64,000 nucleotides of DNA from Stutzerimonas stutzeri KOS6. Lineage in GTDB: Bacteria; Pseudomonadota; Gammaproteobacteria; Pseudomonadales; Pseudomonadaceae. The stretch spans positions 320,152-384,151 of the forward strand of contig NZ_KK020676.1 in NCBI RefSeq assembly GCF_000307775.2, in the 5' to 3' direction. The notes under the pieces are model-generated. The model did no database searches, was not told the DNA's origin, and saw only the letters and a list, made by a program, of their open reading frames with translations. Of this stretch, positions 2 through 59,572 are shown piece by piece. Numbering within the stretch: the first letter of the stretch is position 1; each line of letters begins with the position of its first letter. A program made the position numbers and the translations under genes.

Positions 2-991
2 CTTAAGAATTTTCGTTTGTATGACGACAAAGGTAGAAGATCCGGCTTTGTGAAAACCGACACCGGGTATCAGTTGGTCGGCTTCAAGGATAGAAGAGGT
101 GGAAAGCTAAGCGAGCAGAAAATACAACTAAACGCGAACTCAACAAAGCGAATCTTCGAAGTAATAAAGATCACAGCACCGTTAAGAAAATATCTCAAGG
201 GAATTGGCGACAGCCGATGGAAGGAGTTATTCCTGACCTGCGGGAAGGGTTTCGGTCACCCGCGGAGCGCTGTAATTCCGACTTGGAACAAAGCGCTATT
301 CGATAAACACACACGGATTTTTGAACGACTTGCACAACAATTTTCAAATCATACTTCCTTGAGGGGTACTGAACTAAAAAATTTCTTATCTCGAGTCACC
401 CTTTCTAGTCTTCGAGCCTCATGTGGGGTAGAGGTATATTTAAAAACCCAAAGCGTCGAAGCCATGTCCAAAGCGCTCGGCCACGCAAACCACGACTGCC
501 TGCAACTTTCTCACTACCTGCCCGAGTCAATACTAGCCTTCTTCCAAGCCCGCTGGATAAGAATTTTTCAGCGCGGCTTAATCTGTGACGCGATGAAAGA
601 TAGCAGCTTCCTCATAGAGGCCGCAGACTTCGAGACAATGGAAGAGTTAAATCTATTTCTTAAGAACCATGCACTAAAAGACATCCCTGACCACCTGGTC
701 AACCCGGAGAACACTCAAACAACTGAACCCTATTCAGCGAATCAGTACTCAGAGGTCTACATCTCAGTGGATCCAGGGATAATGACCGCCCTCGTATCAT
801 TAGAGAAAGCAGTGGCTACAGCGGAACGACCCGAAGAAGTGACAGGAGTAGCACGATACTGGGCAGATCTAACGAAGGCCGTTGTTGCCGAGATCAGAAG
901 GGATAATGACGCACTACTGAAAGACCACCTTTATGTCGCCGAGCAGAGGTGTAACCCCCGCAGAATGGAGAAGTTGATATATGAATGTTGA
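2..991 (+). CDS. Tyrosine recombinase, first of three (GinA-like), 5' end outside window
   Basis: The reading frame is open to the left edge, so only the C-terminal part is present, about 329 residues. Tyrosine recombinase features near residues 135-175 of the visible part are SSLRAS (second catalytic Arg), ALGHAN (catalytic His) and LSHYLP (nucleophile Tyr candidate). The usual HxxR is replaced by SxxR. The gene overlaps the next recombinase gene by 11 bp, which points to translational coupling in a three-gene operon. Members of such trios act together in site-specific excision and integration of the island. The family assignment is good; equivalence to GinA is inferred from order and size. 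Confidence 0.65.
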   Translation, partial: LKNFRLYDDKGRRSGFVKTDTGYQLVGFKDRRGGKLSEQKIQLNANSTKRIFEVIKITAPLRKYLKGIGDSRWKELFLTCGKGFGHPRSAVIPTWNKALFDKHTRIFERLAQQFSNHTSLRGTELKNFLSRVTLSSLRASCGVEVYLKTQSVEAMSKALGHANHDCLQLSHYLPESILAFFQARWIRIFQRGLICDAMKDSSFLIEAADFETMEELNLFLKNHALKDIPDHLVNPENTQTTEPYSANQYSEVYISVDPGIMTALVSLEKAVATAERPEEVTGVARYWADLTKAVVAEIRRDNDALLKDHLYVAEQRCNPRRMEKLIYEC

Positions 992-2618: not shown

Positions 2619-3076
2619 ACTTGTTGTGCGATTATTTCGAACTACCACTAAATTCAAAAGGAGAAAGGTACTATATCCGACAACATCAACTTCGACGCTT
2701 TTTCTCCATGGTATTCTTCCACTCGAGCAGTTTTGGAGGACTGGAGACACTGCAGTGGATGCTCGGGCACACCGACATGCAGCATGTTTGGAATTACATT
2801 ACTGAGTCCACTGATGGTGCAGTTTTGCGTAGCGCTAAGGCTCAGTTCATAGCAGAAAGCTTGCATAATGGCGATATCACTGCTTACGAAGATCTAGCCG
2901 AAATACTAAAAATTCGTTACAACACAGATAATTTTGCTCTAGTAGACACTGCTGAACTTGAAGACGCAATCACCGACATGATAAAGACAGGGAAAGTCCA
3001 GATTGAGCCAGAGTTTTTCACAGACGAAACCGGCCAACATATGCGCGTGGTAGTAAAAATTCAGAGCACAGACTAA
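2594..3076 (+). CDS. Tyrosine recombinase, second of three, C-terminal catalytic frame
   Basis: This frame is open from 2543 and carries the end of the second recombinase. HQLRRFF (HxxR), MLGHTD (catalytic His) and WNYITES (nucleophile Tyr) are seen within the first 75 residues. The ATG at 2594 is internal and probably not a true start; no ribosome binding site precedes it. The frame is shifted by -1 relative to the upstream 981-2618 frame. The TAA at 3074-3076 is directly followed by the ATG of the third recombinase, so coupling is kept. It is best read as the 3' half of one gene of roughly 700 codons. Confidence 0.6.
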   Translation: MYAYNRNLDLLCDYFELPLNSKGERYYIRQHQLRRFFSMVFFHSSSFGGLETLQWMLGHTDMQHVWNYITESTDGAVLRSAKAQFIAESLHNGDITAYEDLAEILKIRYNTDNFALVDTAELEDAITDMIKTGKVQIEPEFFTDETGQHMRVVVKIQSTD

Positions 3077-5149
3077 ATGAAAAAAATCTCCGACCTAGAG
3101 CCACATGCTAGCGCCACATTAATAACCAGTGAACTTTTAAAGCTAATCTACCGTAATCCTGACTATTTTTCCAAAAACGAGAACATTCTAAAGGCTCTCA
3201 GAAGCCAAGGAGCGCTAGCCAAGCTCGAATTCAATTTCGAGGACTCAGGGGCTATAAAGTCAAAATCCCCAATGAGCATCAACACTTTAAAATCTCACGC
3301 CAACTTACAGTTCAAGGGAGGATTTAAGGAACTTGATACCCTCCGCCTAGCGGCATTGAGGGCCATTGAGAAGGTCAATGGCAGCAAAGAGGCCACTTCA
3401 ACAAAACGCACTAAGTCCGGACTTTCGCGACTAGTAACTGAACTAGAGGAGAGACTTGATAAGCAGCGCTGCGCCAACATGGTCCTCCTCCAGGGATTAA
3501 GCCTGGCAATTAACGAGTTAAGAAATATACGTAGCAATCTAGATCCCGCTCTACTTGAAAAGCGGGCAAGCGATGCCGTTCAGGCACTTACTGCTCTACT
3601 GAGCCTCCCTCCAGAACAGCCACCCCCCCTCCCCTTCTTCCGGAGACGGGCGAGTTACGCGACTGGAGGAGTATCGCAAGTGACAAACCACCTTCGCCAA
3701 CAACTATTTAAACCACTTAAAGAGCTAACACTCTTTAGCTACCATGCGCATGGAAGTACTATAACAAAAGATGGTTCTGGCCTGCCGTTTTGCTGTTGGC
3801 CTGATGGCACGCCCAATAACGTCGCAAATCTCTACATGCTCGCACTACGTGACCGCCCTGGCCGAGGTGGAAAAGGCCTATCAAGGCACGGCGGTAAAGG
3901 CGGAAGCATTGGGGAGTATGCATCCAAAATAAGCCCACTAGTTCGCTACTGCTTCAGATACCGAACTGACTTTATAGGACTGTCTGACCAACAGTTCTCA
4001 GACTTCATTGACGAATTAAGAAAGGAGCGATCTGTCAACGATCCCACTGTAAATAGGCGCACCGAAACTACACTCCTAGCAATTGGTAGGATCTGTCTAG
4101 ATTTTTTGCAATTCGTAGGACGTCTTTATGGCGACGATGCATTTGTATCAGAGAATGGAACCATCCGCGCCGTAATGAAAACATTTACTATCACAACGCG
4201 CTCAGGAAGAACGATAAAGCGGAGTTATCTGCATCACCACTCTCTTCATGTATCTGGAACGCGCTACCACACGCGCGATCCGATCCCGAGCGAACATATA
4301 AAGCTTTTGCGAGATTCAGCAAACAAAATCCACCCATCGAGACACCTTCAACTTCGACGGAATCTGGTGATTTCCTTGCTTGAGCATACGGGCGCTCGAC
4401 GCAGCGAGATAATTGAAATTACCGTTTCGGACATACGTAATGCCATGAACATGTCGTTCCCATTGCTACGTCTGCGAACCTTGAAACGTGGAACCTATTC
4501 CGAGCGTTTTATCCCGATTTCAAGAGTGGTACTAAGCGAAGCTAAGAAATATATTCAGTTTGCCCGCAGAATATCTCTTCGCAACTTCAAGGACACGGAT
4601 CACGACAGACTCTTTGTTCAAGAAAAGACTGGTAAGCCGCTCGGTGCCTGCAGTATTACGAATGAAATGATTCAACTTAGAAGTCACGCCGGCATCGAAG
4701 AAAAAGTCTGTGCACACATGTTCCGCCATGCTTTCATCACCAATCTTTTCGTACTCCTAATCAAAAGACACAAGTTCAAGCAAAAGGACGACTTCAGAAG
4801 CGCCCTGCTTAATAGCAAAAAGTTTCTTTACGACGTCATGCTGTGGACTGGCCACAAAGATCCCCTCTCGGTAGAACGGTATATTCATCTTGCATTCGCC
4901 AAACTTGATGGATACGAAGACATCGTTTCATCTGCCCATATAATCAGGACTAACCGTATATATGACCAGGCCGAGGAGCTACTTCTGAACGCATTAAAAA
5001 ATGGTATGCCAGTTGACGAGTACGTGCGTGAACTGGAGAAGCTAAAGCAACTTCGGCAAGAAGATCTCAAGAAAGAGACAAAGGAAGAGGAAGAGGAAGA
5101 GAATACGGAGTCAGTCAAAAGCTGGGAGCATTGGCATAACCACCTTTGA
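3077..5149 (+). CDS. Tyrosine recombinase, third of three (GinC-like), complete
   Basis: The 690-residue protein has a complete C-terminal catalytic domain: TGARRSE (first Arg, about residue 438), TLKRG (Lys), AHMFRHAF (HxxR), WTGHKDP (His) and VERYIHL (nucleophile Tyr, about residue 607). The N-terminal half is long and family-specific, and the tail is a charged, Glu/Lys-rich coiled-coil-like segment. The start ATG follows the preceding stop without a gap. As the only member of the trio with the full residue set and no frameshift, it may supply most of the strand-transfer activity. In GInt islands all gin genes are needed for movement; whether this copy still moves anything is unknown given the damaged second gene. 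Confidence 0.75.
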   Translation: MKKISDLEPHASATLITSELLKLIYRNPDYFSKNENILKALRSQGALAKLEFNFEDSGAIKSKSPMSINTLKSHANLQFKGGFKELDTLRLAALRAIEKVNGSKEATSTKRTKSGLSRLVTELEERLDKQRCANMVLLQGLSLAINELRNIRSNLDPALLEKRASDAVQALTALLSLPPEQPPPLPFFRRRASYATGGVSQVTNHLRQQLFKPLKELTLFSYHAHGSTITKDGSGLPFCCWPDGTPNNVANLYMLALRDRPGRGGKGLSRHGGKGGSIGEYASKISPLVRYCFRYRTDFIGLSDQQFSDFIDELRKERSVNDPTVNRRTETTLLAIGRICLDFLQFVGRLYGDDAFVSENGTIRAVMKTFTITTRSGRTIKRSYLHHHSLHVSGTRYHTRDPIPSEHIKLLRDSANKIHPSRHLQLRRNLVISLLEHTGARRSEIIEITVSDIRNAMNMSFPLLRLRTLKRGTYSERFIPISRVVLSEAKKYIQFARRISLRNFKDTDHDRLFVQEKTGKPLGACSITNEMIQLRSHAGIEEKVCAHMFRHAFITNLFVLLIKRHKFKQKDDFRSALLNSKKFLYDVMLWTGHKDPLSVERYIHLAFAKLDGYEDIVSSAHIIRTNRIYDQAEELLLNALKNGMPVDEYVRELEKLKQLRQEDLKKETKEEEEEENTESVKSWEHWHNHL

Positions 5150-5655: not shown

Positions 5656-8181
5656 CTACGATTTTCGCGGCTTAGCTCTAGCTGTAGCCTGGGCCACAAG
5701 CGGGTCCTCAGGCCAGTAATGCTTAGGGTACCTACCTCGTAAATCTTTCTTCACTTCCGCGTAGGTATTGCGCCAGAAACTCGCCAGGTCCTGGGTGACC
5801 TGCACCGGGCGCTGGGCCGGGGACAGCAGGTGCAGCTTGACGCCCTGACGGCCACCGGCGATGCGCGGAGTGTCGGCGAGGCCGAACAGCTCTTGGAGGC
5901 GCACCGCGAGAACCGGCATCTCGTCGCTGTAGTCGAGGCGGATGCGCGAGCCGGAGGGCACTTCCAGCGTACGCGGCGCCAGCTCGTCGAGGCGTTGCGG
6001 CAGCGGCCAGGGCAGCAGGCCATGGAGGATGCCGGCGAGGTCGAGGTTGGCGAAATGGCTGAGGCGGCTGACCTTGCCCAGCCAGGGCTGCAGCCACTCC
6101 TCCAGGCTGGCCAGAAGCGCCGCGTCGGAGAGGTCTGGCCATTCGCTGCTGCCCGTGTCGGCCAGGTCCAGTCGGCGCAGCAGCGCCACCCGCGCCTGCC
6201 ACTGGCGCAGCTCCGCACTCCACGGCAGCAGCTCCAGCCCCTTGCGTCGCACCAGACCGAGCAGCGCACGCGAGCGGGCCTCGTCATCCAGTTCGGCAAG
6301 GGCTTCGCGGGCCAGCACCAACTCACCCACTTTCACCTGACGTTCGGCGCGCAGCACACCTTCGCGCTCTTCCCAGTCGAGCAGGTCCTGGCACCTTACC
6401 TGTTCGGCCAGAGGGCCGTCGAACAGTGCGGGATCAAGGTCGGCCGCGAGATAGATGCGCTCTTCACGCTGGCCCTGGCGGCTACCGAGATCGGCGATCA
6501 CCAACCAGGGCTCCTTCATCAGCGCATCCGGCTCGCCAAAGGTGGCTGCACGGCCATTGGCCAGCCGATAATCGGCCCCTCCGGCACGACGTTGCTGGGC
6601 AATGCGGTCCGGGTAGGCGAACGCCAGCAGGCAGCCGAGCCAGCGCGGGTGATCCGGATCGGCCACCGGCTCGCTGGCCGGGCCACGCAGGTAGGAACGG
6701 AACTGCCGCGCCAGCTGGCGAGCACGCTGCACGCCGCCACGAGCGCCACGCGCTGCCTTGTCGTTACCGGCCAGCAAGGCGAGGCGGCTGTGCAGGTCGG
6801 CACCGCCACCACGCAGGATGTCGCGCTCGCCCAGTAGGGCGGCGAGGTCACAGGCCAGGCCGCCGAGTCCCAGGGCGTGGCCACGTAACAGCAGGTGGGC
6901 AATGCGCGGATGGGCGGGCAGTTCGGCCATGGCCTGGCCATGGCGGGTCAAGTTGCCATCGTCGGCCAGTGCGCCGAGGCGTTGCAGCAGGTCACGGCCC
7001 TGGGCGTAGGCAGCCGTGGGCGGCGGATCGAGCCAGGCCAGTTCATTGGGATCACCAATCCCCCAGCGCGCCAGTTGCAACGCCAGTCCGGCAAGGTCGG
7101 CCTGGAGGATTTCCGCGCTCCCGTGGGCGGCCAGTTGCTCATGCTGGGCCTCAGACCAGAGCCGGTAGCAGGCACCCGGCTGCAGACGGCCGGCACGGCC
7201 GGCACGCTGGGTCGCGGAGGAGCGGGAAATACGCTGGGTGTCCAGGCGAGTCATGCCACTGGCCGGGTCGAAGCGCGGTACACGCTCCAGGCCCGCGTCC
7301 ACCACCACGCGCACGCCATCGATGGTCAGGCTGGTCTCGGCGATGTTGGTGGCCAGCACCACCTTGCGCTTGCCCGCCGGTGCCGGCTCGATGGCCGCGC
7401 GCTGGGCAGCGAGGTCCAGTTCACCGTGGAGCGGGCAGAGCAGGATCTCTGACCGGCCAGCGAGGCGCTCGGCCAACTGCTCGGCGACGCGGCGAATCTC
7501 CGCCTGGCCGGGGAGGAACACCAGCAGGCTGCCAGGTTCATCGGCCAGGGCCTGGAGCATGGTCTGTACCACCCGGGGTTCGAGCGCCTCGCCGATCTGA
7601 CTCGGCCGCCCCCAACGCTGCTCCACCGGATACATGCGACCTTCGCTGCGTACCACAGGCGCCTCGTCCAGCAGGCGCGACAGGCGCTCGCCTTCCAGCG
7701 TGGCGGACATCAGCAGCACCTTCAGCGGCGGTTCGTCGCGCAACAACTCACGGCCGTTGAGACACAAGGCCAACGCCAGATCGGCATCGAGACTACGCAG
7801 ATGATACTCATCAAATATGAGCAGCCCAACGCCATCTAGGGCAGGATCGTCTTGAAGCCGACGAGTAAGAATGCCTTCAGTCACTACTTCAATTCGAGTC
7901 TGTGGTCCGACCTTACTCTCCAAGCGAATTCGATAGCCGACTGTTTGCCCAACGCTTTCTCCCAGCTCGCTCGCCAGTCGCTCAGCTGCGGCTCTGGCAG
8001 CTAGTCGACGTGGTTCGAGCATGACAATAGTCTGGTCGGCCAGCCAAGGCTCTTCCAGCAGCGCTATTGGTACTCGCGTTGTTTTGCCTGCCCCCGGCGC
8101 TGCCTCAAGTACAACTTCATTACGTGCAGACAAGGCATCTCTTAAAGCGGGCAAAACAGATTCAATCGGCAACAAACTCAT
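5656..8181 (-). CDS. hrpB: ATP-dependent RNA helicase HrpB, reconstituted hybrid gene
   Basis: HrpB is a DExH-box helicase of about 840 residues; this one has 841. Walker A is APGAGKTT near residues 28-35, the DExH box is DEYH at 124-127, and SATL and the QRAGRAGR motif VI follow, then the HA2-type and HrpB C-terminal domains. The start is the ATG at 8181 with AGGAG five bases upstream; an earlier GTG at 8205 is less likely. Base composition changes sharply twice: codons 1-127 or so and the last 35 or so are A+T-richer than the GC-rich middle. A second, GC-rich copy of codons 1-127 lies 50 kb away at 58632-59012. I infer that both ends were supplied by inserted islands, leaving a functional gene. 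Confidence 0.93.
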   Translation of the reverse strand: MSLLPIESVLPALRDALSARNEVVLEAAPGAGKTTRVPIALLEEPWLADQTIVMLEPRRLAARAAAERLASELGESVGQTVGYRIRLESKVGPQTRIEVVTEGILTRRLQDDPALDGVGLLIFDEYHLRSLDADLALALCLNGRELLRDEPPLKVLLMSATLEGERLSRLLDEAPVVRSEGRMYPVEQRWGRPSQIGEALEPRVVQTMLQALADEPGSLLVFLPGQAEIRRVAEQLAERLAGRSEILLCPLHGELDLAAQRAAIEPAPAGKRKVVLATNIAETSLTIDGVRVVVDAGLERVPRFDPASGMTRLDTQRISRSSATQRAGRAGRLQPGACYRLWSEAQHEQLAAHGSAEILQADLAGLALQLARWGIGDPNELAWLDPPPTAAYAQGRDLLQRLGALADDGNLTRHGQAMAELPAHPRIAHLLLRGHALGLGGLACDLAALLGERDILRGGGADLHSRLALLAGNDKAARGARGGVQRARQLARQFRSYLRGPASEPVADPDHPRWLGCLLAFAYPDRIAQQRRAGGADYRLANGRAATFGEPDALMKEPWLVIADLGSRQGQREERIYLAADLDPALFDGPLAEQVRCQDLLDWEEREGVLRAERQVKVGELVLAREALAELDDEARSRALLGLVRRKGLELLPWSAELRQWQARVALLRRLDLADTGSSEWPDLSDAALLASLEEWLQPWLGKVSRLSHFANLDLAGILHGLLPWPLPQRLDELAPRTLEVPSGSRIRLDYSDEMPVLAVRLQELFGLADTPRIAGGRQGVKLHLLSPAQRPVQVTQDLASFWRNTYAEVKKDLRGRYPKHYWPEDPLVAQATARAKPRKS
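7796..7815. other. Left junction of the metal-resistance island, in the hrpB DExH codons
   Basis: Here GC-rich hrpB sequence gives way to the A+T-richer substitute 5' end. The codons for DEYH (7801-7812) align with those for DEFH at 58632-58643 on the other side of the island. The bases common to both junctions are short (TCATC within the Asp-Glu codons), so the exact crossover cannot be fixed by eye. Confidence 0.6.
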
Positions 8182-8393
8182 GATGGCTCCTAGCTGAGCC
8201 ACCAATTATAGATACGAGGGAAGCTGTTACGGCACGGCGGTATGTCAATCACGCCCAGTGCACGGCTCCCTTCGGGCCGCTCAGAGATAAACGGGGCCTA
8301 TTTAAACGGCATGATGGACATCAAGGCCACAGCCAGCATCTGCCCCTTGAACACCTGACGAGGGGGATCCTCTTGCCAGTGTTGCGCCCCGGC

Positions 8394-38579: not shown

Positions 38580-40027
38580 CATTCCAACACAAGCGGCTGG
38601 TACTCGCCTTCAGTCTGCCTCTGATGATTAGCGCTGCAGCGCTAATCGGTCTGCCTACCGCAGCCTTCGGACAATCGCCTGCAGAAGAAGACAAGGAAGT
38701 GCTCTATTGGTATGACCCTATGGTCCCCCAGCAAAAGTTCGATAAGCCGGGCAAGTCGCCATTCATGGATATGGAATTGATTCCACGCTATGCAGATGAG
38801 GGAAGCGACGGGGCATCGATCAGTATCGACCCGAGCGTGACGCAGAATCTCGGCGTGCGCTTTGCAACCGTAACGCGTGAATCGATCAGCCAGTCGCTCG
38901 AAGCGACAGGCGCATTGATGTTCGACGAGCGAGACGTGGCGGTTGTGCAGGCGCGTGCCGGTGGCTTTGTCGAGCGCGTTTACGACCGAGCACCGGAGGA
39001 TGTCATCGAAAAAGGCGCGCCGTTAGCCGATCTGCTGGTTCCCGAATGGGTTGCCGCACAGGAAGAGTACCTGGCGCTCAAAGGGATTGGCGAACCCCAG
39101 CTGCTCGCAGCGGCTCGCCAGCGGTTGCGCCTTGCTGGCATGCCGCCAGAAGTCATAGTGCAGCTAGAACGAACTGGTAAAGCGCGCCCTGTTTGGACAG
39201 TGAGGAGTCCAATAGGCGGCGTGCTGAACAGCCTCGACGTTCGCGAGGGCATGACCGTATCCACTGGTGCGTCTCTGGCACGTGTTAATGGGCTGGAAAA
39301 GGTATGGTTAGAGGTTGCGGTGCCTGAGGCGCAGGTTGCAAATGTGGCGCCTGGGCAGCTGGTCAACGCGCGCCTCCCGACCTTTGCAGGTGAAGTTCTG
39401 GAAGGGACGATCCAGGCCGTACTACCACAAGCCAACTTGGATAGCCGTACTGTGCGCGTCCGGGTTGAACTGCCTAATCCGCAACAACGGCTTCGTCCCG
39501 GCATGACGGCCGAGGTGACGTTGAGTCGCAACGTCGAAGATGTCTTGGTCATCCCGTCCGAGGCGGTCATTCGCACCGGTCGGCGCGCATTGGTGATGCT
39601 GGCCGAGGATCAAGGCCGTTACCGCCCGATTGAGGTTCGCACAGGCCGGGAATTCGATGACCAGACAGAGGTGCTTGAAGGGCTGGAAGCCGGTCAGAAG
39701 GTCGTGGCGTCCGGTCAGTTTCTCCTGGATTCAGAGGCGAGCCTACGCGGGCTGACCGCTCAGGGTTTGGAGGAGCCTGCAACTTCTACAGAACCTGCGC
39801 TGCACGAGGCTGAAGGTACGATCGTCAGCCTGGAAGATGGCATGGTTGGCCTGTCGCATGGGCCGTTCAAGACGCTGAACATGCCTGGGATGACAATGTC
39901 CTTTCCGGTTGCAGATCAATCGCTCCTAACAAAGTTGCAGACCGGCGATCACGTCCGTGTCGGCGCGCGTGAAAGCGAAGAGGGCCTGGTCATTGAGCAC
40001 ATCGAGAAGCTGGGGGGCCAGCGATGA
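38576..40027 (+). CDS. cusB: CusB, periplasmic adaptor with fused CusF-like domain
   Basis: 483 residues. After a signal segment comes the metal-binding repeat [20 protein letters not shown] near 43-62, as in silver/copper adaptors, then barrel-sandwich ([20 protein letters not shown]) and membrane-proximal domains. The last 75 residues are a CusF-like barrel with [15 protein letters not shown] holding the Met/Trp-type Cu(I) ligands, so a chaperone is fused to the adaptor. It passes Cu(I)/Ag(I) to CusA. It overlaps both neighbours by 4 bp. Confidence 0.92.
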
Positions 40028-43000
40028 TCGCAGCCATAATTCGCTGGTCAGTGGCCAACCGCTTTCTGATCCTGCTGGCTACTGTGTTCGCGGTGGCTTG
40101 GGGTGTCTGGTCGGTCAAAAACACCGCTGTTGATGCATTGCCAGACCTTTCCGACGTTCAGGTCATCATCCGCACGCCATACCCCGGGCAGGCGCCCCGG
40201 ATCGTTGAGAATCAGGTCACCTACCCACTGACGACGACCATGCTGTCTGTCCCCGGCGCAAAGACGGTCCGCGGCTACTCCTTCTTCGGGGATAGCTACG
40301 TGTACGTCCTGTTTGAGGACGGCACCGACCTCTATTGGGCCCGTTCTCGGGTGCTGGAGTACCTGAGTCAGGTGCAGAGTCGGCTTCCCGCCGCCGCCAA
40401 ACCCGCTTTGGGCCCTGACGCCACAGGTGTCGGCTGGATCTACCAATATGCTTTGGTAGACCGAACGGGCAAACATGACCTCTCGCAGCTGCGCTCTTTG
40501 CAAGATTGGTTCCTGCGCTATGAGCTCAAGACACTGCCCAACGTGGCGGAAGTCGCGCCCATAGGCGGGATGGTCAAGCAGTATCAGGTCGTACTGGATC
40601 CCGTGCGCATGGCAAGCAGGGGCGTGACGCAGCAGCAGATTGCAAAGGCGATCGATGAAGCCAACCGTGAAACCGGCGGGAGTGTTCTGGAACTCGCAGA
40701 AACCGAGTTCATGGTCCGTGCGACCGGGTATCTCAAGACACTCAAAGACTTTCGAGCCATTCCTTTGCGTCTCGACGGCGGCGTGCCTGTGACGCTAGGG
40801 GACGTTGCGCATATCCAGCTCGGCCCGGAAATGCGCCGGGGCATCAGCGAGCTTGACGGTGAAGGTGAGGTAGTCGGCGGCGTGGTGATCCTGCGGAGCG
40901 GCAAGAACGCTCGGGAAACCATCGCTGCCGTTCAGACCAAACTGGATGAGCTGAAAGCGAGCCTGCCCCAAGGCGTCGAAATCGTCACGACGTACGACCG
41001 TAGCAAGCTGATCGACAGTGCCGTTGAAAACCTCACGCACAAGCTCATCGAGGAGTTCATTGTCGTTGCGTTGGTTTGCGCGATTTTTCTGTGGCATCTG
41101 CGCTCGTCGTTGGTCGCCATCGTGTCGTTGCCGATCGGCATCCTGATTGCTTTTGTGATCATGCAGCGGCAAGGCATCAACGCCAACATCATGTCGTTGG
41201 GTGGCATCGCGATCGCCATCGGAGCGATGGTCGATGCAGCAATCGTCATGATCGAAAACGCCCACAAGCACATTGAGGCCTGGCACAAGCGGCATCCTGA
41301 CTCCACCTTGAAGGGCCAGGAGCACTGGAAGGTCATTACTGACGCGGCTGTTGAAGTGGGGCCGGCACTGTTCTTCAGCCTGCTGATCATCACGCTGTCG
41401 TTCATACCAGTGTTCACCCTGGAGGCGCAGGAAGGCCGGCTGTTCGGTCCACTGGCGTTCACCAAAACCTATGCAATGGCAGCCGCCGCGGGCCTGTCTG
41501 TCACGCTGGTTCCGGTGCTCATGGGGTATTGGATCAGGGGCAAAATCCCTGACGAACACCGTAATCCACTCAACCGTGGCCTCATCTGGATCTACAAGCC
41601 GGCCCTGGACGCGGTACTGCGCTGGCCCAAGATGACTCTGCTGGTGGCTGTTCTGGTCTTCCTGACAGGCTTGTGGCCGGCCTCTCGCCTTGGTGGGGAG
41701 TTCTTGCCCCCGCTGGATGAAGGTGACCTCCTTTATATGCCCACTGCGCTTCCAGGCCTCTCCGCTCAGAAGGCTTCTGAGCTACTGCAGCAGACGGACC
41801 GGCTCATAAAAACGGTTCCAGAAGTTGCACACGTGTTCGGTAAGGCTGGTCGAGCCGACACCGCTACAGATCCCGCCCCGCTGGAAATGTTCGAGACGAC
41901 CATTCAGTTCAAGCCGAAGGATCAATGGCGCCCTGGGATGACGCCTGACAAGCTGGTTGAGGAGTTGGATCGCACCGTACAGGTACCTGGATTAGCCAAT
42001 CTGTGGATCCCGCCGATTCGAAACCGTATCGATATGCTGGCGACGGGTATCAAGAGCCCGATCGGGGTGAAAGTGTATGGCACTGACTTGGCACAGATCG
42101 ACAAAGCCACCCAGGCAGTGGAAAAAATCGCCAAAACGGTGCCTGGGGTCAGTTCGGCACTTGCTGAGAGACTGACCGGCGGCAGGTATATCGATGTGGA
42201 TATCGATCGTGTCGCCGCCGCACGCTACGGCCTGAATATCGCGGACGTGCAATCGATCGTGGCCGGTGCCATCGGTGGTCAAACCATTGGTGAAACCGTG
42301 GAAGGGCTCGCCAGGTATCCGATCAACCTCCGCTATGGCCGCGAGTGGCGCGACTCGATATCCGATCTGCGCAACCTACCGATCTACACGCCGCAAGGCA
42401 GCCAGATCACGTTGGGGACCGTGGCCAAAGTACAGGTGACAGACGGACCGCCCATGCTTAAAAGCGAAAACGCAAGGCTGTCGGGCTGGGTTTACGTCGA
42501 TGTTCGTGGCCGCGACATGGCGGCTGTGGTGGGCGATCTGAGGGAAAAGATCAGCAAAGGGGTCCAGCTCGAATCCGGCATGAGCATCAGCTATTCCGGC
42601 CAATTCGAATTCATGGAGCGAGCTAACGCGAAGCTGAAGCTCGTCGTGCCGGCTACCTTGCTCATCATTTTTGTCTTGCTCTACCTCACGTTTGGGCGCT
42701 TTGGGGAGGCGTTGCTGATCATGGCCACGCTGCCATTCGCCCTAACCGGTGGCGTCTGGTTCCTCTATTTGCTCGGGTACAACCTATCCGTAGCGACAGG
42801 AATCGGTTTCATCGCACTGGCAGGCGTTTCTGCTGAGTTCGGCGTCATTATGCTGCTGTATTTGAAGAACGCATGGACAGATCGGGTTAACGCTGGAGCC
42901 CATGGCGAAGGCGTACTGCTCGACGCAATCCGCGAAGGCGCTGTGCAGCGGGTGCGCCCCAAGGCCATGACCGTAGCAGTGATTATCGCCGGTCTGCTGC

Positions 43001-43188
43001 CCATCCTCTGGGGTAGCGGAACCGGCAGCGAAATCATGAGCCGCATCGCCGCGCCCATGGTGGGCGGGATGATCACCGCCCCTTTGCTCTCCCTGTTCGT
43101 TCTGCCGGCAGCTTACCTGCTGATGCGCCGCCGGCAATTGCGAGTTACCACCCAGCAAGCAACCAACCCCACTGGAGAACATCCATGA
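40024..43188 (+). CDS. cusA: CusA, copper/silver RND efflux transporter
   Basis: 1054 residues in the RND fold. The TM4 motif [17 protein letters not shown], near residues 395-411, is that of HME4 pumps for monovalent copper and silver and clearly differs from the HME1 motif of CzcA at 18178. [17 protein letters not shown] and methionine-rich steps are as in CusA. It is the inner-membrane engine of CusCBA. Coupled by 4-bp overlaps to cusB and cusF. Confidence 0.95.
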
Positions 43189-43597: not shown

Positions 43598-43613
43598 ATT
43601 ACCGCTTTGTAAC
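43598..43613. promoter_or_regulatory. Metal box (ATTACC-N4-TGTAAC)
   Basis: Two-mismatch version of the island dyad, 71 bp before the small periplasmic protein gene at 43684, suggesting a separate copper-inducible transcript after cusF. Confidence 0.5.
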
Positions 43614-44545: not shown

Positions 44546-44573
44546 GATATGAGGGTGTGAGTAACAATGATCG

Positions 44574-44606
44574 AAGCAGGTGGGGGGTGCCCCACCTGCT
44601 TTTTTG
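44574..44606 (+). terminator. Strong Rho-independent terminator
   Basis: A perfect 12-bp stem, AAGCAGGTGGGG/CCCCACCTGCTT, with a four-base loop and a T-run. It separates the small periplasmic genes from copS and shows that the longer frame reaching upstream of 44636 is not the real kinase start. Confidence 0.85.
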
Positions 44607-44635: not shown

Positions 44636-46009
44636 ATGGGAAAAGTGTCACTGACGAGCAGAATGGCGATAGCTTTCATGCTCGTGGTTACGGTTGTGCT
44701 GCTGGCGGCCGCAATCAGCTTTAATTATTTTTGTCAGCTCCATTTCGAACGCAAAGATGCACAAGTGCTTAATGAAAAGGCCGCTGCAGTAGAGCGTACG
44801 CTACTCAACAGCTCAGCATTCGGGCCTGAGACCGCTTCAAGGATCGATGCCGTTATTGAGCACTCCTTTGGCTTCGCGACTGCGGTTGTAGTAGACGGTA
44901 AGACGGTTTACTCCCATCACAATCTGTCTGAGAGCTTGCTACCTCTTGTCACAGACATCCAAGAGGAACGCTGGACGGTAAGTTTCGGTGGCCACCAGTA
45001 CAGCGGAATTACCAGAAAAGTAAATCGGTGGGTAGAAGGGCAGGACACTGTTATCTATTTGGCTTTGGATGTAACGCACCGAATCCACTTCTTCGATATG
45101 ATTCAGCAGTGGTTTGCTTATACGCTTGTCGTTAGTGCACTTCTGAGTGGCGCGTTAGGTGTTGTTCTGATCAGGAAAGGCTTAAAACCAATAGACGAAC
45201 TGTCCAAGACTTCTTCTACAGTAACCGCCCACTGCTTAGATACCAGAATTCCAACCGAGTCGGTGCCAGGCGAGCTGCATGAACTCGTAGACAACTTCAA
45301 CGAAATGCTTTCGCGCTTGGACGACTCTTTTCTCAGATTGTCAGGTTTCTCAGCGGATATCGCGCATGAGCTAAGAACGCCGCTGAACAGCATGCTTACC
45401 CAAATGGAGGTCGCGCTCTTGCGCGACCGCGAGAATACCGACTACAAAGACATTTTGTATTCCGCCCTCGAAGAACTTAGGCGCATGTCAAAGATGGTCG
45501 ATGACATGCTATTCCTCGCCAAGGCGGACAACGGGAAGATTACGCCCAATGCCGAAGATGCCAGCATGGCTGAGATTACCGCGAGCGTTATCGAATATTA
45601 CGAGCTTGCAGCCGAGGACAAAAAGGTAGAAATCGCGCTTTCAGGCGATGGATCGGTACATGGCGATAAATCGATGCTGAGACGGGCCGTCTCAAACATA
45701 GTCTCTAACGCAGTTCGATATGCAGAGGAAGGCAGCACCATCAGCGTTGAAATAAGCGAGAGCGGTGGCTCGGTTTGCACAGCCATATCCAACCGAGGCA
45801 CAACGATTCCAGCCGAGCTTCAGGCCCGAGTGTTTGATCGATTCTATAGGGTCGACACCGCAAGGCGCGAAGGAACCACCATGAATGCGGGCCTCGGCAT
45901 GGCTATCACTCGTTCGATAGTCGAAGCGCACAAAGGGCGCATCGCTTGCGAATCAGCTGAGGGGCATACGACTTTCACAATGACGCTTCCAAAGCTTATG
46001 TCTAGTTAA
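44636..46009 (+). CDS. copS: CopS/CusS-like sensor histidine kinase without adjacent regulator
   Basis: 457 residues: two membrane helices flank a periplasmic sensor (about 38-165), then HAMP, H-box SADIAHELRTPLNSM near residue 255, and the ATPase domain (VSNIVSNAVRYA; NAGLGMAIT). It belongs to the heavy-metal sensor kinase family. The ATG at 44636, with AGGA eight bases upstream, follows the terminator directly. No response regulator is adjacent; the only unpaired one is copR at 55584, about 10 kb away on the same strand. Pairing of the two is inferred. Confidence 0.85.
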   Translation: MGKVSLTSRMAIAFMLVVTVVLLAAAISFNYFCQLHFERKDAQVLNEKAAAVERTLLNSSAFGPETASRIDAVIEHSFGFATAVVVDGKTVYSHHNLSESLLPLVTDIQEERWTVSFGGHQYSGITRKVNRWVEGQDTVIYLALDVTHRIHFFDMIQQWFAYTLVVSALLSGALGVVLIRKGLKPIDELSKTSSTVTAHCLDTRIPTESVPGELHELVDNFNEMLSRLDDSFLRLSGFSADIAHELRTPLNSMLTQMEVALLRDRENTDYKDILYSALEELRRMSKMVDDMLFLAKADNGKITPNAEDASMAEITASVIEYYELAAEDKKVEIALSGDGSVHGDKSMLRRAVSNIVSNAVRYAEEGSTISVEISESGGSVCTAISNRGTTIPAELQARVFDRFYRVDTARREGTTMNAGLGMAITRSIVEAHKGRIACESAEGHTTFTMTLPKLMSS

Positions 46010-46114: not shown

Positions 46115-47782
46115 GTGCAAGCGTCCTCATCGAGAAAATGCGGTACGACAGCCGCAGCGCTCAACGAAGCGTGCTTCTGCGTAAGCCTAGATCAAGCTGC
46201 GCTCGTAAACTCATTGACCGAACAGCTTGGGAATTCAGAGCTGTCGGAGCTATTGAAGTCACGTTGCCCTCATGTGTTTGCAGCACGACCGGTCTTTGTT
46301 TCATCCTTGCGGCTGCGCCAGGTTAATGAGGTTATTCAGGCCATCGAGCAGACCGTGAGCTCGCCCGGTTGGCGTGAGCATGCTCTGGATTCTGCACCTC
46401 CTATTGCCCGACACGATCCTCGGGGCGCGCGCGGCGTCTTCTTTGGCTACGACTTCCATCTGGATGATGACAAGCTTGGGCTCATCGAAATAAACACAAA
46501 TGCGGGCGGAGCGATGCTAAACGTATTGCTCGCCCGCGCGCAGCGTAGTTGTTGCAGCGGCGTAGTCGGGCTTTCGCCAGGTCAGGAAGGACCCGGCGGC
46601 TTCGAGCGTTCGATTCTGGATATGTTCGCCCAGGAATGGTCTACGAGCGGCGAGCCACGTCCGCTCACGCGCGTGGTGATCTTGGATGAAAGCCCACAAG
46701 CCCAATACCTGTATCCGGAGTTCCTTCTTTTTCAGCGGTTATTCGAGTCAGCAGGAATCGACTGCCTAATCGCAGACCCAGCCGATCTGGCCTTTCACAA
46801 CGAGTCCCTCTTGGTCGACGGAAAGCCTGTGGATCTCGTCTACAACCGACTCACCGATTTCTATCTGGAAGGCGACAATTGCAGCGCGCTGCGCAGCGCT
46901 TATTTGGCTGATGTCGTGACGGTAACGCCACACCCTCAGGCCTATGCCCTTTACGCCGACAAACGTAGGTTGGTTGACCTAACCAACGCACGTTTTTTGG
47001 AAGAGATTGGCGTTGATCAGCAAATCCGAACCGTATTGGCCCAATACGTCCCGCTTACCGTTCCTGTCGGGCATGGTAATGCAGAGCACCTGTGGCAAAA
47101 CCGCCGTAGCCTCTTTTTCAAGCCTGTCAGCGGGTATGGTAGTCGCGGTGCATACCGAGGAGACAAGCTCACCAAGCGCGTTTGGGAAGAAATCGTTGGC
47201 GGAAACTACGTGGCCCAGTCCCTTGTAGCTCCTGGCGAGCGTAGAATCGTCGCCGACCCTCAGGTACGATCGATGAAGTTTGATCTGCGCGCTTACGCTT
47301 ATGCTGGCGAGGTGCAGTGGAACGCTGCCAGGGTCTACCAAGGCCAGACGACCAACTTCAGAACAGAGGGGGGCGGTTTTGCTCCCGTTTTTACCTTAGG
47401 CGAGGAAGAGGAGCGAGCCGGTTCTACAGAGCAACGGTCGCACGCCTCGTTCATGTTCTTGCTCGACGAAACCGGCGCCGTAGAGGAACTGCCGCACCCG
47501 CTATATCTGGCGCTGGTTCGAGCCGAAATGGCTACTTCTAAGCTTGCCGGTAAGCGTTTCCGATTGGCGGACTGGTATGTGGCAATGGAAGATGGCCATC
47601 CTTCCGAAGTCATCCGAGAATTGTACGGCTGGGTTGCTTTCGACGCAGATGGCGCCTACCACCCTGAAGTTGGCCCACCAGAAAATGGTCAGCCAAATAG
47701 TATTGGCAATGTTGACTCATCTGCCCTGCCAACACCGGAAGAACATGATCGAATCGAAGGTCTGTTGTTTCAAAGTGAGTGA
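46115..47782 (+). CDS. ATP-grasp-like protein of unknown function in the copper block
   Basis: 555 residues, no signal peptide. The motifs suggest an ATP-grasp ligase fold: GLIEINTNAGGAMLN near residue 115, FFKPVSGYGSRGAYRG near 332 (a Lys and Gly-rich ATP loop), and KFDLRAYAYAGEVQWNAARVY near 385, but order and spacing do not match a family I can name. A Cys cluster stands at the start (KCGT, EACFCVS). GTG at 46115 has GGAGG five bases upstream. It follows copS by about 100 bp with no terminator. It might make a peptide or metal-binding ligand; this is speculation. Confidence 0.6.
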   Translation: MQASSSRKCGTTAAALNEACFCVSLDQAALVNSLTEQLGNSELSELLKSRCPHVFAARPVFVSSLRLRQVNEVIQAIEQTVSSPGWREHALDSAPPIARHDPRGARGVFFGYDFHLDDDKLGLIEINTNAGGAMLNVLLARAQRSCCSGVVGLSPGQEGPGGFERSILDMFAQEWSTSGEPRPLTRVVILDESPQAQYLYPEFLLFQRLFESAGIDCLIADPADLAFHNESLLVDGKPVDLVYNRLTDFYLEGDNCSALRSAYLADVVTVTPHPQAYALYADKRRLVDLTNARFLEEIGVDQQIRTVLAQYVPLTVPVGHGNAEHLWQNRRSLFFKPVSGYGSRGAYRGDKLTKRVWEEIVGGNYVAQSLVAPGERRIVADPQVRSMKFDLRAYAYAGEVQWNAARVYQGQTTNFRTEGGGFAPVFTLGEEEERAGSTEQRSHASFMFLLDETGAVEELPHPLYLALVRAEMATSKLAGKRFRLADWYVAMEDGHPSEVIRELYGWVAFDADGAYHPEVGPPENGQPNSIGNVDSSALPTPEEHDRIEGLLFQSE

Positions 47783-48326
47783 GGTCCCGCGCGCCACGAA
47801 AGGCGCGGCTTGGGACAGAATAACCTCGCCGCTCAGTTTTGGAGCCAGCTACACCCAGCCGTCTTAGCCGCCACACATCTAATGTGCGAATACTAACCCT
47901 GCGGTCACACTCGACAAGAACGTGGCATATGCTGGGTGCTGAATTGTTCTCTCCGAGTGTTCTATTGCTCACGATAACTCTTTGGGCTTGCTAAGCCGAG
48001 TAGTCGGGTCTCAAGGCTTGAAGGCCATCTTAGTGGGCCCGCTCTTTCGCGCAGTGGTCCATAGCGCGACGTTGGTATTGTCTGCTTATAAGCTATTAGC
48101 GATTGATTAGTTCAGGGGAACATTACGCGTAGTACAGCGCTGGCAGCGCTTTAAGCCGGTCTTAAAGCGGTCGATGATTACATTTTTGTAAGCTTCTCAA
48201 AAAATCGAAACCTCATCATCTTCGGCTTGTCCGTTTTTAGGAGAGCATTCGAAAGCCACTTCTAAGCAGGGCTGCGCGAACACGTTGAGTCGCCGATCCA
48301 GCAGCAATCATTAAAGAGGTCTAACT
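47783..48326. other. Intergenic stretch with a metal box only
   Basis: 544 bp between the ATP-grasp-like gene and the DUF305 gene. No convincing gene is seen; it contains an imperfect GC-rich hairpin just after 47783 and the metal box at 48177. Confidence 0.5.
48177..48192. promoter_or_regulatory. Metal box upstream of the DUF305 gene (ATTACA-N4-TGTAAG)
   Basis: A one-mismatch copy of the dyad, with TTTT as spacer, identical to the box before the copA oxidase operon at 54786. It lies 135 bp before the DUF305 gene. Confidence 0.6.
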
Positions 48327-48782
48327 ATGCAAATGTCTTACTGGCGCTTTGCAGCGATGGTAGCCACGTCTACGATCATTATGTATGGCGTGATGTACTT
48401 AAATACTTACTCGTTCGAGCATGTTTTTTGGAGCGAGACTCGCGCTTGGATGGCATTAGTGATGGGCGCGGTAATGGCAGTAGTCATGCTCGCATTCATG
48501 CTCAACATGTATAAGCGTAAGTCAGTAAACCTAGCGATATTGGCAGGAAGTGCAGTAGCTTTTACCATTGCACTATGGCTTGTACGTGGGCAAGCGACGG
48601 TAGACGACACGGACTACATGAAGGCCATGATCCCCCACCATTCCATAGCAATCCTAACAAGTGAACGAGCTCAGATTTCAGATCCTCGCGTCCGCAAGTT
48701 AGCTGACGAAATCATCGACGCTCAGCGCCGAGAAATCGCAGAAATGAAGTCCCTGATCAATGAACTAGAAAGGGCAAATTGA
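48327..48782 (+). CDS. Membrane protein with DUF305-like C-terminal domain
   Basis: 151 residues: three hydrophobic helices (about residues 8-25, 38-60, 70-87) and a C-terminal helical part with YMKAMIPHHSIAILTSERA, the Met/His core of DUF305 (ferritin-like fold), then ADEIIDAQRREIAEM. Such proteins are common in copper clusters and may bind metal at the periplasmic face. AGAGG precedes the ATG. Its 3' end overlaps the converging SDR remnant by 26 bp. Confidence 0.78.
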   Translation: MQMSYWRFAAMVATSTIIMYGVMYLNTYSFEHVFWSETRAWMALVMGAVMAVVMLAFMLNMYKRKSVNLAILAGSAVAFTIALWLVRGQATVDDTDYMKAMIPHHSIAILTSERAQISDPRVRKLADEIIDAQRREIAEMKSLINELERAN

Positions 48783-52790: not shown

Positions 52791-54632
52791 TTACTCGTCC
52801 ACTCGGACTTCACGAAACATGCCCATTTCCATGTGAAGCAGTAGGTGACAGTGATAAGCCCAACGCCCGAGCGCATCGGCTGTCACGCGGTAGCTGCGCT
52901 TCGAACCTGGAGGCATGTCGATCGTGTGCTTGCGAACCATGAACTTTCCATTCTCATCTTCAAGATCGCTCCACATACCATGCAGATGAATCGGATGGGT
53001 CATCATGGTGTCGTTGACCAAAGTGATGCGTACCCGCTCGCCATATTTGAGCCGCAGGGGCTCCGAATCAGAGAACTCTATACCGTCAAATGACCAGGAG
53101 AACTTCTCCATGTGGCCGGTGAGATGGAGTTCGATCGTCCGACTGGGCTCACGGCCGTCCGGATCGGGGAAAGTGCTTCTCAAGTCGCTATAGGTCAGGA
53201 CTCGGCGGCCGTTGTCTCGTAAGCCAATACCGGGATCGTTCAGCCTATGAGTTGGGCTCATGGTCTGCATGTCCACCAGTGGGTTATTGGACTCTGAGGG
53301 CGGGTGCGATTGCATACCTGCGCTCATCCCAGCCATTCCAGAGTGGTCCATCCCGGACATCCCACCCATTTTGCTGTGATCCATGCCGGCCATTGCGCCC
53401 ATGTCGCCCATCCCTTGCATGTCACCGTGGTTCATGCCGGACATGTTGCTATGGTCCATCGCGCCCATGTCGCCGCCATGGTCCATGCCCGCCATACCGC
53501 CCATGCTGCCGTGATCCATCCCCATGTCGTCCATGGTGATTAGTGGTCGAGGATCGGTTTCTGGAACAGGAGCGCTCAGCCCTTCGGCAACCGCTAGCGT
53601 GCCACGGGCGTATCCTGTGCGATCCATCGATTGGGCGAAGATCGTGTAAGCCTCCTCGGTCGCAGGCTCGACAATCACATCGTAGGTTTCTGCCACGGCA
53701 ATGCGGAATTCGTCGACGCTAACTGGGTTGACGTATTGGCCATCGGCTGCGACTACAGTCATCTTCAGCCCTGGAATGCGGACATCGAAATAGCTCATGG
53801 CCGAGCCGTTGATGAACCGCAGACGAAGCTTCTCGCCGGGCTTAAAGATGCCGGTCCAGTTCCCGTCGGGTGCTTGGCCGTTCATTAGATAGGTATAGGT
53901 GTAGCCGCTTACGTCGGCGAGGTCGGTGGGACTCATTTTCATCTGAGCCCACATTTTCCGATTCGCAATCGTAGCGGCCCAGCCGTCTTCGCTCACATCG
54001 TTAATGAAGTCTCCGACAGTGCGCTTGTGGAAGTTGTAATAATCGGACTGCTTCTTGAGCTTAGAAAGGATTCGAGCGGGATCCTCATCGGACCAATCAG
54101 TCAACATCACCACATAGTCGCGGTCATAGCTGAACGGTTCGGGATCCTTCGCATCGATGACCAAGGGACCATAGACACCAAGCTGCTCTTGTAGGCCTGA
54201 ATGACTGTGGTACCAATAGGTACCGTTCTGTTTAACCTGAAACTTGTAGACATACATGCCATCGGGAGCGATGCCGTGGAAGCTCAATCCAGGCACGCCA
54301 TCCATGTTGGCCGGCAGGATCATGCCGTGCCAGTGAATCGATGTATCTTCGCTCAACTTATTTCTGACTCGCAGCGTGACGGTATCCCCTTCACGCCAAC
54401 GTAGAAGCGGCCCTGGGATGGTCCCATTGATAGTCATCGCTGTCCGGGCCGCGCCGGTGATATTGACCGGCGTCTCCCCAATCAGCAGATCGAACTCCGT
54501 GCCACTTAGTACGCTGGGCTGGCCTGGGCTAGTCACTGCCCAGACCGGAGCTCGCCACAAGCCAAGACCGCCAAGGATGCCTGCGGCAGTCAAGCCTTTA
54601 ACAAAGGTTCGCCTAGAGGTTTTACGTTGCAT
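52791..54632 (-). CDS. copA: CopA, periplasmic multicopper oxidase
   Basis: 613 residues with a Tat signal (SRRTFVKG) and three cupredoxin domains. Copper ligands are in HWHGMILPA near residue 100, WYHSHSG near 140, HPIHLHG near 550 and AYHCHLLLHMEMGM near 595, giving the type 1 and trinuclear sites. Between domains 2 and 3, about residues 360-430, are many Met/His words (MDHSNMSGMNHGDM) as in Pseudomonas CopA. It oxidises and sequesters Cu(I) in the periplasm. It is the first gene of the copA - small protein - copB - cytochrome operon, with a metal box 154 bp upstream. It shares its gene name but not its function with the ATPase at 34403. Confidence 0.93.
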   Translation of the reverse strand: MQRKTSRRTFVKGLTAAGILGGLGLWRAPVWAVTSPGQPSVLSGTEFDLLIGETPVNITGAARTAMTINGTIPGPLLRWREGDTVTLRVRNKLSEDTSIHWHGMILPANMDGVPGLSFHGIAPDGMYVYKFQVKQNGTYWYHSHSGLQEQLGVYGPLVIDAKDPEPFSYDRDYVVMLTDWSDEDPARILSKLKKQSDYYNFHKRTVGDFINDVSEDGWAATIANRKMWAQMKMSPTDLADVSGYTYTYLMNGQAPDGNWTGIFKPGEKLRLRFINGSAMSYFDVRIPGLKMTVVAADGQYVNPVSVDEFRIAVAETYDVIVEPATEEAYTIFAQSMDRTGYARGTLAVAEGLSAPVPETDPRPLITMDDMGMDHGSMGGMAGMDHGGDMGAMDHSNMSGMNHGDMQGMGDMGAMAGMDHSKMGGMSGMDHSGMAGMSAGMQSHPPSESNNPLVDMQTMSPTHRLNDPGIGLRDNGRRVLTYSDLRSTFPDPDGREPSRTIELHLTGHMEKFSWSFDGIEFSDSEPLRLKYGERVRITLVNDTMMTHPIHLHGMWSDLEDENGKFMVRKHTIDMPPGSKRSYRVTADALGRWAYHCHLLLHMEMGMFREVRVDE

Positions 54633-58547: not shown

Positions 58548-59012
58548 CTACTGGCAGCTACCAAAGCCTGAGGCGAGACGTGGCTGGCTTTTCTGACAAG
58601 ACAATGCGACTTCCTGCGCATTTAGCAAAACGTGGAATTCATCGAAGATCACCAGGCCGACGCCTTCCAGCGCCGGATCGTCCTGCAGGCGCCGCGCAAG
58701 AATGCCTTCGGTGACCACTTCGATGCGCGTATTCGGCCCGACCTTGCTGTCCAGGCGGATGCGGTAGCCGACGGTCTCGCCGACCCGCTCGCCCAGTTCG
58801 CTGGCCAGCCGCTCGGCGGCAGCCCGGGCCGCCAGCCGCCGCGGTTCGAGCATGATGATGCCCTGCCCCGCCAGCCAGGCTTCGCCGAGCAACGCCAGCG
58901 GAACGCGGGTGGTCTTGCCGGCGCCGGGCGGCGCCTCGAGCACGGCTTCGTCGCGCTGTTGCAGGGCCTGGCGCAGCGCTGGCAGGGCTTCATCGATCGG
59001 TAGGGAATTCAT
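58548..59012 (-). pseudogene. hrpB: Displaced original 5' end of hrpB
   Basis: From the ATG at 59012 the first 127 codons match the start of HrpB ([11 protein letters not shown] near residue 28, [21 protein letters not shown] at 122-127) and align without gaps to the intact gene, with about 25 differences by eye. Codon use is GC-rich like the hrpB body at 5.8-7.8 kb. After His127 at 58632 the frame enters island sequence and stops at 58548. It keeps Walker A and DExH but lacks all later motifs, so it cannot be a helicase. It is the part that was cut off when the island inserted. Confidence 0.88.
58625..58643. other. Right junction of the island in the hrpB DExH codons
   Basis: Homology to hrpB ends at 58632, between the codon for His of DEFH and island sequence. 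It is the counterpart of the junction near 7801. Confidence 0.6.
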
Positions 59013-59071
59013 GGACACTCGCTTCGGGCAGACAACTCGGCAACTGCTGCGTCCACCCGAAGCCGGACGCA

Positions 59072-59572
59072 TCAGTTGACGCTGTAGCCTCGTCCGGTCA
59101 GGCAGGCACCAAGGGCGCGCTTGTAGGTGTCGGCGCTCGCCGCAGCGGGCGCCGACTGGGCGCTGGCCGGATCGAAGCCGCTCTGGCTGACCGCCCAGCT
59201 ATGACACTCATAGCGGTCGCGGCTCTGCAGCTCGGCACTCTGGCCCTTGGCCGGATAGGCGATGACATCATATCGCGTGGCCTCGCCGGCCGGCAGCGGC
59301 GGCTGGCTGACGGGTTCGTAGACGTTGCGCTCGGCATTCCACAGGTAATAGGTTCCGGCGGCGATGAAATAGAGCATGCTGCCGACCCAGATTTCCCGCG
59401 CACCGACCGGCAGACCATGGCCGCGCCGAGGGCCCGGCGCATGGTAGTGCACTGGCTTGCCCGGCGCCCGGTGCCCGGCAGGCCCCGGCCCGGGCGCTGC
59501 GGCAAACGTCGTCGAAGTGATGCAGAGGGAAAGCAGCGCGCCGAAACCGGCACGCGGTAATGACCGGGACAT
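59072..59572 (-). CDS. Exported hypothetical protein, DUF6515-like
   Basis: 166 residues: a signal peptide ([15 protein letters not shown]), a Pro/Gly/His-rich segment ([14 protein letters not shown]), then a compact domain with [20 protein letters not shown] and [17 protein letters not shown], as in DUF6515 proteins of Pseudomonas. The start at 59572 is chosen for the signal peptide. It is backbone DNA next to the 5' end of hrpB; function unknown. Confidence 0.65.

Follow-up and report, generated by a model that had tools for sequence, protein, structure and literature searches.

The gene that follows the copper sensor kinase gene copS in Stutzerimonas stutzeri KOS6 encodes a predicted circularly permuted ATP-grasp enzyme with putative ligase activity (here called the ligase), an assignment supported by a structural model, and its relatives recur beside copper, arsenic and mercury resistance genes. 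Its modeled fold, its conserved ATP/Mg residues, the conservation of its cysteines and its operon contexts are observations. A possible reading, which we put forward tentatively and which could well prove wrong, is that the enzyme works as an ATP-dependent amide (C-N) ligase and that conjugating a host thiol or peptide is its contribution to resistance against the soft metals copper, arsenic and mercury. All coordinates refer to the 64-kb stretch of DNA that was analyzed, termed the window (Table 1).

Table 1. Location in the window of the ligase gene, its parts and neighboring features
Feature	Coordinates	Strand	Basis or remark
CusA/CzcA-type RND pump	40024..43188	+	TIGR00914, 1382.8 bits, above cut-off
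TTACAnnnnTGTAA box, one mismatch	43599..43612	+	Upstream of PtrA-like gene starting the group before copS
Terminator-like hairpin	44573..44602	+	Between DUF2933-type gene and copS; 9 such sites in scan, 5.2 expected
copS-type heavy-metal sensor kinase	44642..46009	+	Directly upstream of ligase gene; TIGR01386 (cztS/silS/copS), 424.1 bits, cut-off 292.55
Ligase gene	46115..47782	+	Open frame, GTG start; dN/dS 0.10-0.21 in five comparisons
Predicted catalytic core, residues 1-428, circularly permuted ATP-grasp ligase	46115..47398	+	Model; fold matches over residues 16-429; weak Gss profile alignment
CxC (C20, C22)	46172..46180	+	Main-clade conservation
EINTNAGG (E125-G132)	46487..46510	+	E125 and N127 align with GspS E330 and N332
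CC pair (C146, C147)	46550..46555	+	Main-clade conservation
ATP loop FFKPVSGYGSRGAYRGDK (residues 334-351)	47114..47167	+	K336 aligns with KP of GspS loop
C-terminal extension, residues 429-555	47399..47779	+	Mostly absent from plasmid relatives; separate gene in two genomes
Exact TTACAnnnnTGTAA box	48178..48191	+	Before DUF305/CopM-like gene (48327-48782), downstream of ligase gene
CopA multicopper oxidase	52791..54632	-	TIGR01480, 995.6 bits, above cut-off

The ligase gene and its copper cluster

The open-frame reading gives 555 codons, and thus 555 amino acids, from the GTG at 46115 to the stop ending at 47782, with GGAGG placed 6 to 10 bases 5' of the GTG and an in-frame TTG at 46097 as a possible alternative start. 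Copies with 72 to 100% identity are found in 29 of the 56 Stutzerimonas genomes (own genome counted), and matches in 56 of 298 genomes of the family Pseudomonadaceae, two of which hold short stretches only. Whole-gene dN/dS against five diverged copies is 0.10 to 0.21, two further pairs being saturated, and because of these values and the copies across genus and family we regard the gene as more than a chance frame. In one genome, an additional copy is split into three pieces (G050:C1:710927-712589). A long "fusion" frame containing the ligase in another genome (G096) was rejected as an overlong GC-rich frame, in which the homologous part starts at about residue 654.

The preliminary description, made from the letters and open reading frames of the window, placed a 555-residue protein directly after copS, and we observe the same: copS ends at 46009 and the ligase gene starts 105 bp beyond. 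Because the gap is 105 bp, copS and the ligase gene are probably co-transcribed; the scan found neither a promoter-like site nor a plus-strand terminator-like site between them. Besides the pump and the oxidase listed in Table 1, the cluster encodes a P-type ATPase that passes the copper-translocating NCBIfam model TIGR01511, CusF-like and CopM-like proteins with NCBIfam matches below the cut-offs, and a four-helix protein with no NCBIfam match at the limit used.

Exact TTACAnnnnTGTAA palindromes occur four times in the window (24696, 48178, 50315 and 54787) against 0.02 expected, three of them preceding copper genes, and nine sites are found against 0.59 expected when one mismatch is allowed; this box may be a CopR site. 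The nearest box 5' of the ligase gene is that at 43599, and the hairpin at 44573-44602 separates it from copS. The "copper regulon" proposed in the preliminary description has support from the cluster context only: boxes precede neighboring genes, but the window has none directly before copS or the ligase gene.

A metal region of about 50 kb lies between two hrpB-like pieces (names assigned by eye), a helicase gene at 5656-8205 and an N-terminal fragment at 58548-59072. These two are on the same strand and 72% identical over 311 bp, an arrangement that would fit the insertion of an island at hrpB. A row of four ORFs near the hrpB gene (2-5149), some with tyrosine-recombinase-like motifs recognized by eye, may represent the mobility genes of this island.

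A predicted circularly permuted ATP-grasp fold

The ligase was modeled with AlphaFold2 from a 13-row alignment. The best model has a mean pLDDT of 73.7 and a pTM of 0.70, with most of the core at pLDDT 80 to 95, dips to 52 to 70 and poor ends, and three of the five models reach a mean pLDDT of only 45 to 49. In VIA-align, where rows differing by less than 1 in Z count as tied, the best model matches YjfC (7uk6) with a Z of 28.2 (rmsd 3.4, 351 aligned), YgiC with 27.9, glutathionylspermidine synthetase (GspS, or Gss) with 27.0 (range 25.6 to 27.0), plant and human glutathione synthetase with 26.9 and 25.8, homoglutathione synthetase with 26.6, trypanothione synthetase with 25.0 and Cp1B with 24.2. 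Alignments to these permuted folds begin at residues 7 to 16 and finish at 428 to 430; nonpermuted ATP-grasps have Z scores of at most 9.4 (e.g., LysX, 9.4) and align only from residue 155 to 186 onward. The match over the whole core, together with the position of EINTNAGG N-terminal to the ATP loop, therefore indicates a circular permutation. The ATP-grasp fold suspected from the sequence is thus borne out by a model of middling confidence and very strong fold matches, and structure prediction with fold search, the check proposed for it, refines the type to the circularly permuted group of glutathione synthetase, GspS, YgiC and Cp1B.

Sequence-level matches are fainter. Pfam PF14403 (CP_ATPgrasp_2) gives a weak, partial match below the family cut-off (20.3 bits against 32; residues 214-403, E 2.9e-4) and matches just 5 of 13 ligase-family members at E<=0.1, NCBIfam models give no match to the ligase, and PDB sequence searches with it returned nothing useful. 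Profile alignment with Escherichia coli Gss gives a weak match (probability 50%; E 1.6e-4, one comparison; two of the five Gss rows are short wrong frames), in which D113 lies opposite Gss D318, E125 opposite E330, N127 opposite N332 and K336 at the KP of the loop. In Gss, E330 and N332 bind Mg. Gss R316, the active-site Arg, falls on Gly111, so that the ligase has glycine where Gss has this arginine.

The known enzymes of this fold each differ from the ligase. E. coli YjfC and YgiC share the permuted fold over the whole core (residues 16-429, Z of about 28) but only 8 to 10% identity, and the metal-operon setting and conserved cysteines are features of the ligase. E. coli Gss resembles it in fold (Z 25.6 to 27.0), in motif order and in the aligned E-x-N and KP motifs, whereas the ligase lacks the amidase domain and the KOS6 genome has no match at E<=10 to PF03738 (glutathionylspermidine synthetase). 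The eukaryotic glutathione and homoglutathione synthetases align over 356 to 385 residues in most rows (Z 22.6 to 26.9) but are 10 to 14% identical, and the ligase gene is a bacterial accessory whose host also encodes a GshB. That separate GshB, above cut-off elsewhere in the genome, led us to reject the ligase as the host glutathione synthetase. The top Foldseek match is Cp1B (9cjn, E 2.9e-15, 18% identity), a fungal amide ligase of E-64 synthesis. Cp1B belongs to a fungal natural-product pathway, with no metal link there in the available portion of the source (PMC12568646).

Conserved residues and the polyamine ligase alternative

Both motifs named in the preliminary description, EINTNAGG (residues 125-132) and a Lys/Gly-rich ATP loop (residues 334-351), are present. 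Across 68 ligase-family proteins, D113, E125, N127, K283, K336, K388, D390, R392 and R406 are at least 95% conserved, as is Gly111; among these, D113, E125 and N127 are the putative Mg ligands and K283 and K336 the putative ATP lysines. The N-terminal Cys cluster noted at the outset consists of real and conserved cysteines but is not one cluster, being made up of a CxC (C20, C22) and a separate CC pair (C146, C147). Among 49 main-clade proteins, C20 is present in 48, C22 in 47, and C146 and C147 in 46 each, with all four together in 45 (the exceptions are L062, L149, L168 and L169); in the sister groups these positions are gapped, in all 12 proteins of one and in 5 to 6 of the 7 of the other. 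This conservation, read from the alignment, supports an importance of CxC and CC irrespective of any role.

These cysteines also bear on a first alternative, that the ligase is a YgiC/YjfC-like peptide- or amino-acid-polyamine ligase whose product guards against general metal-linked stress without binding metal. YgiC and YjfC are reportedly peptide-spermidine ligases (Pederick 2023). They are the closest folds by Z, and they are called peptidylpolyamine synthetases in the portion of PMC12568646 available to us. On the other side, Z differences below 1 are ties, the fold is common to enzymes with other substrates, and four cysteines limited to the metal-linked clade are left unexplained, and we consider this alternative rather unlikely.

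Distribution, plasmid relatives and the C-terminal extension

Beyond the family, searches of the class (369 genomes) and the phylum (398 genomes) gave matches, some of them fragmentary, in 16 and 129 genomes, respectively. In a quick tree of 88 proteins, 69 form a main clade (SH-aLRT 100), and two sister groups of shorter proteins stand outside it. The metal-context labels cluster on this tree, with 12 changes for copper against 22.9 when shuffled and 7 for arsenic against 11.5, on a tree in which two identical proteins (L163 and L228) are labeled differently and three rows are long-branched. A viral origin of the ligase was rejected: the BFVD search for viral relatives gave nothing at E<=0.001, and just 1 of 12 candidate IMG/VR stretches carries a ligase relative.

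Relatives also occur in 32 plasmid records, where the features under the match are annotated as hypothetical or conserved hypothetical proteins, one record having no feature. Query coverage is below 80% in 28 of these records, and most of these matches end near residue 428; the extension (residues 429-555) is retained in plasmid records of Pseudomonas luteola, Stutzerimonas, Acidovorax and Polaromonas. Modeled alone, it reaches a pLDDT of 67.6 with a best fold match at E 0.054, and its fold search gave nothing at E<=0.001. In two genomes, it is a stand-alone gene of 141 to 156 codons (L068:8430-8855 and L069:8046-8516) with no Pfam family above cut-off, and in L068 this gene adjoins a PII-like gene and a cation-efflux gene (both by eye). 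On the Sulfuricella plasmid pSCD (L060), the ligase gene is followed directly by a run of F0F1 ATP synthase genes.

Association with copper, arsenic and mercury resistance

We observe an association with copper genes elsewhere, as the preliminary description anticipated for a neighborhood survey, with a copper-protein panel scoring at 7 of 20 ligase loci but at none of 40 control stretches taken from those 20 contigs (Fisher P = 0.0002); it is not exclusive, since arsenic and mercury genes are found as well. Across 69 main-clade loci, the copper, arsenic and mercury panels gave 26 Cu, 12 As, 1 Hg, 1 Cu plus Hg and 29 none within 9 kb, in a set that is not random: it includes 8 of the 32 plasmids, chosen by us, 20 loci from two families picked after an arsenic or copper context was noticed there, several short contigs, and the closely related window, L058 and L052. 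Metal genes thus lie near 40 of 69 loci compared to 0 of 40 controls at the same thresholds, counts in which Cd/Zn pumps may be among the P-type ATPase matches at 35% identity and the arsenic label of L076 hangs on an ArsC match 5.8 kb off. At looser thresholds, two of the 40 controls score (ArsC-like, 38%, in L181; MerR-like, 34%, in L200). The 20 loci from the class and phylum searches (L150 to L169) divide into 6 Cu, 3 As and 11 none.

In the arsenic contexts, three loci (L155, L217 and L224) share a same-strand arsR-ligase-arsC-acr3 arrangement with about 5 to 60 bp between genes, L216 has arsR-ligase-acr3 with no ArsC match, L225 has ligase-arsC, and L150 and L219 combine ligase, arsC and acr3 with an ArsP-like permease close by; in L083, the ligase and acr3 frames share 4 bases. 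NCBIfam cut-offs are passed by ArsR, ArsC (174.7 bits against 174.3) and ACR3 of L155, ArsR of L217, ArsC of L150, and ACR3 of L224, L150 and L083, and the permease name at L072 is a guess because it falls below all cut-offs. Ligase matches, two of them short, were found in 14 of the 20 genomes from the L155 family. PstS-like phosphate-binding genes, recognized by eye, lie near the ligase-bearing ars operons of L155, L216, L224 and L225. With respect to mercury, the ligase gene of pMR68 (Pseudomonas sp. K-62) is within the mer region, and that of an Acidovorax plasmid is at most 9 kb from mer genes. A copper-only enzyme is ruled out by these relatives in arsenic operons and mercury loci.

The sister clade and arsenosugar genes

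By our own count, family f207, whose genomes are small, contributes 65 of the 129 matching phylum genomes, a tally that covers matching genomes. We examined 12 sister-clade loci (L130 to L141), 11 from f207 and one from f227, and in 9 of them the shorter homologue is followed by two overlapping or adjoining genes. At three loci tested, these two genes pass TIGR04283 and TIGR04282, the arsenosugar biosynthesis glycosyltransferases, where the "arsenosugar" label is NCBI naming. TIGR04167, the ArsS model, scores above cut-off in all 17 f207 genomes tested, in 3 of 5 others and in 1 of 14 controls; in G671, G699 and G754, the TIGR04167 gene is on the ligase contig but far away. ArsS is a radical SAM enzyme in arsenosugar synthesis, according to the accessible part of PMC12159101. 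No mention of the ligase family was found in the open literature on arsenosugar genes that was searched.

The position of the sister clade beside glycosyltransferases could hint at sugar-linked substrates. A second alternative builds on this: the ligase would attach a metabolite to a compound that contains a metal(loid) or is linked to a sugar, for example an organoarsenical or a glycosyl carrier, and the copper clade would have been redeployed later. The glycosyltransferase pair at 9 of 12 sister loci, the distribution of TIGR04167 in f207 relative to controls and the presence of the main clade in arsenic operons all agree with it. Nonetheless, TIGR04167 is not over cut-off in the KOS6 genome or in G720, tblastn with both glycosyltransferases found no match in the main-clade loci searched, the glycosyltransferase names depend on NCBI naming, and copper and mercury loci need no organoarsenical. 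We regard this alternative as improbable.

A possible role in thiol conjugation

For the amide ligase reading, the reaction, the substrates, the product and the role of the cysteines are what we infer from fold and context. The main clade would be a mobile accessory of resistance to thiol-loving metals. In the proposed mechanism, the ligase would act on a host thiol or small peptide, either glutathione or one of its precursors, by phosphorylating its carboxylate and joining the activated carboxylate to an amine, such as a polyamine or an amino acid; the resulting conjugate would bind Cu(I), As(III) or Hg(II), or aid export. The CxC and CC cysteines may bind metal, coupling ligase activity to metal load.

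Copper, arsenic and mercury share an affinity for thiols, and members of this fold group couple thiol peptides to glycine. Couplings of thiol peptides to beta-alanine or polyamines by members of the group are described in the available text of PMC12568646. The shared affinity of the metals and the chemistry of the fold relatives together suggest amide conjugation of a host thiol or peptide. As the ligase travels with copper, arsenic and mercury genes, and as three ars operons have only a regulator, a reductase and a pump alongside it, its substrates are probably host metabolites; the 5- to 60-bp gaps in these operons, with no partner enzyme between, likewise make host substrates likely. The thiol or peptide chelator suggested in the preliminary description would be a fitting product for a ligase found with three thiol-loving metals. 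The weak GspS alignment, Gly111 at the place of R316, the three models of low pLDDT, the 29 of 69 loci (11 of 20 from the class and phylum searches) with no panel metal gene, the two controls that score at looser thresholds, the lack of a PF03738 match in the genome and the sister clade beside glycosyltransferases count against the amide ligase reading. A wider picture would have the resistance enzyme move among copper, arsenic and mercury operons, produce a low-molecular-weight thiol or metal(loid) conjugate of an undescribed kind, be metal-gated via CxC/CC and have an older sister in arsenosugar-type metabolism; as a whole, it is doubtful.

Other ATP-grasps modify proteins or peptides, and protein modification was already named in the preliminary description. 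In a third alternative, the ligase would act in this way, by tagging or on a graspetide-like precursor. Graspetides exemplify ATP-grasp peptide modification in the part of PMC8939145 available. The gaps of 5 to 60 bp in the three ars operons leave no room for a precursor gene, and we judge this alternative quite improbable for the ligase. Least probable of all is a metal-binding or sensing pseudoenzyme, which would suit the conserved cysteines and the replacement of GspS R316 by Gly in the weak alignment but is opposed by Mg and ATP residues conserved to at least 95% in 68 proteins.

Implications for soft-metal resistance

No paper tying such an ATP-grasp to copper or arsenic resistance was found in the open literature searched, including the available portions of PMC10092412 and PMC7826186. 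The former lists a Nitratiruptor "ATP-grasp domain-containing protein" among genes differentially transcribed under Cd and Cu (PMC10092412, available portion). Few bacterial gene clusters are as well studied as the operons for copper, arsenic and mercury resistance. The conserved ligase inside them has no NCBIfam model and falls below the Pfam cut-off. If the amide ligase reading is true, a biosynthetic step of soft-metal detoxification would have been overlooked in chromosomal and plasmid-borne islands, raising the question of a dedicated bacterial metal-binding conjugate beyond glutathione.
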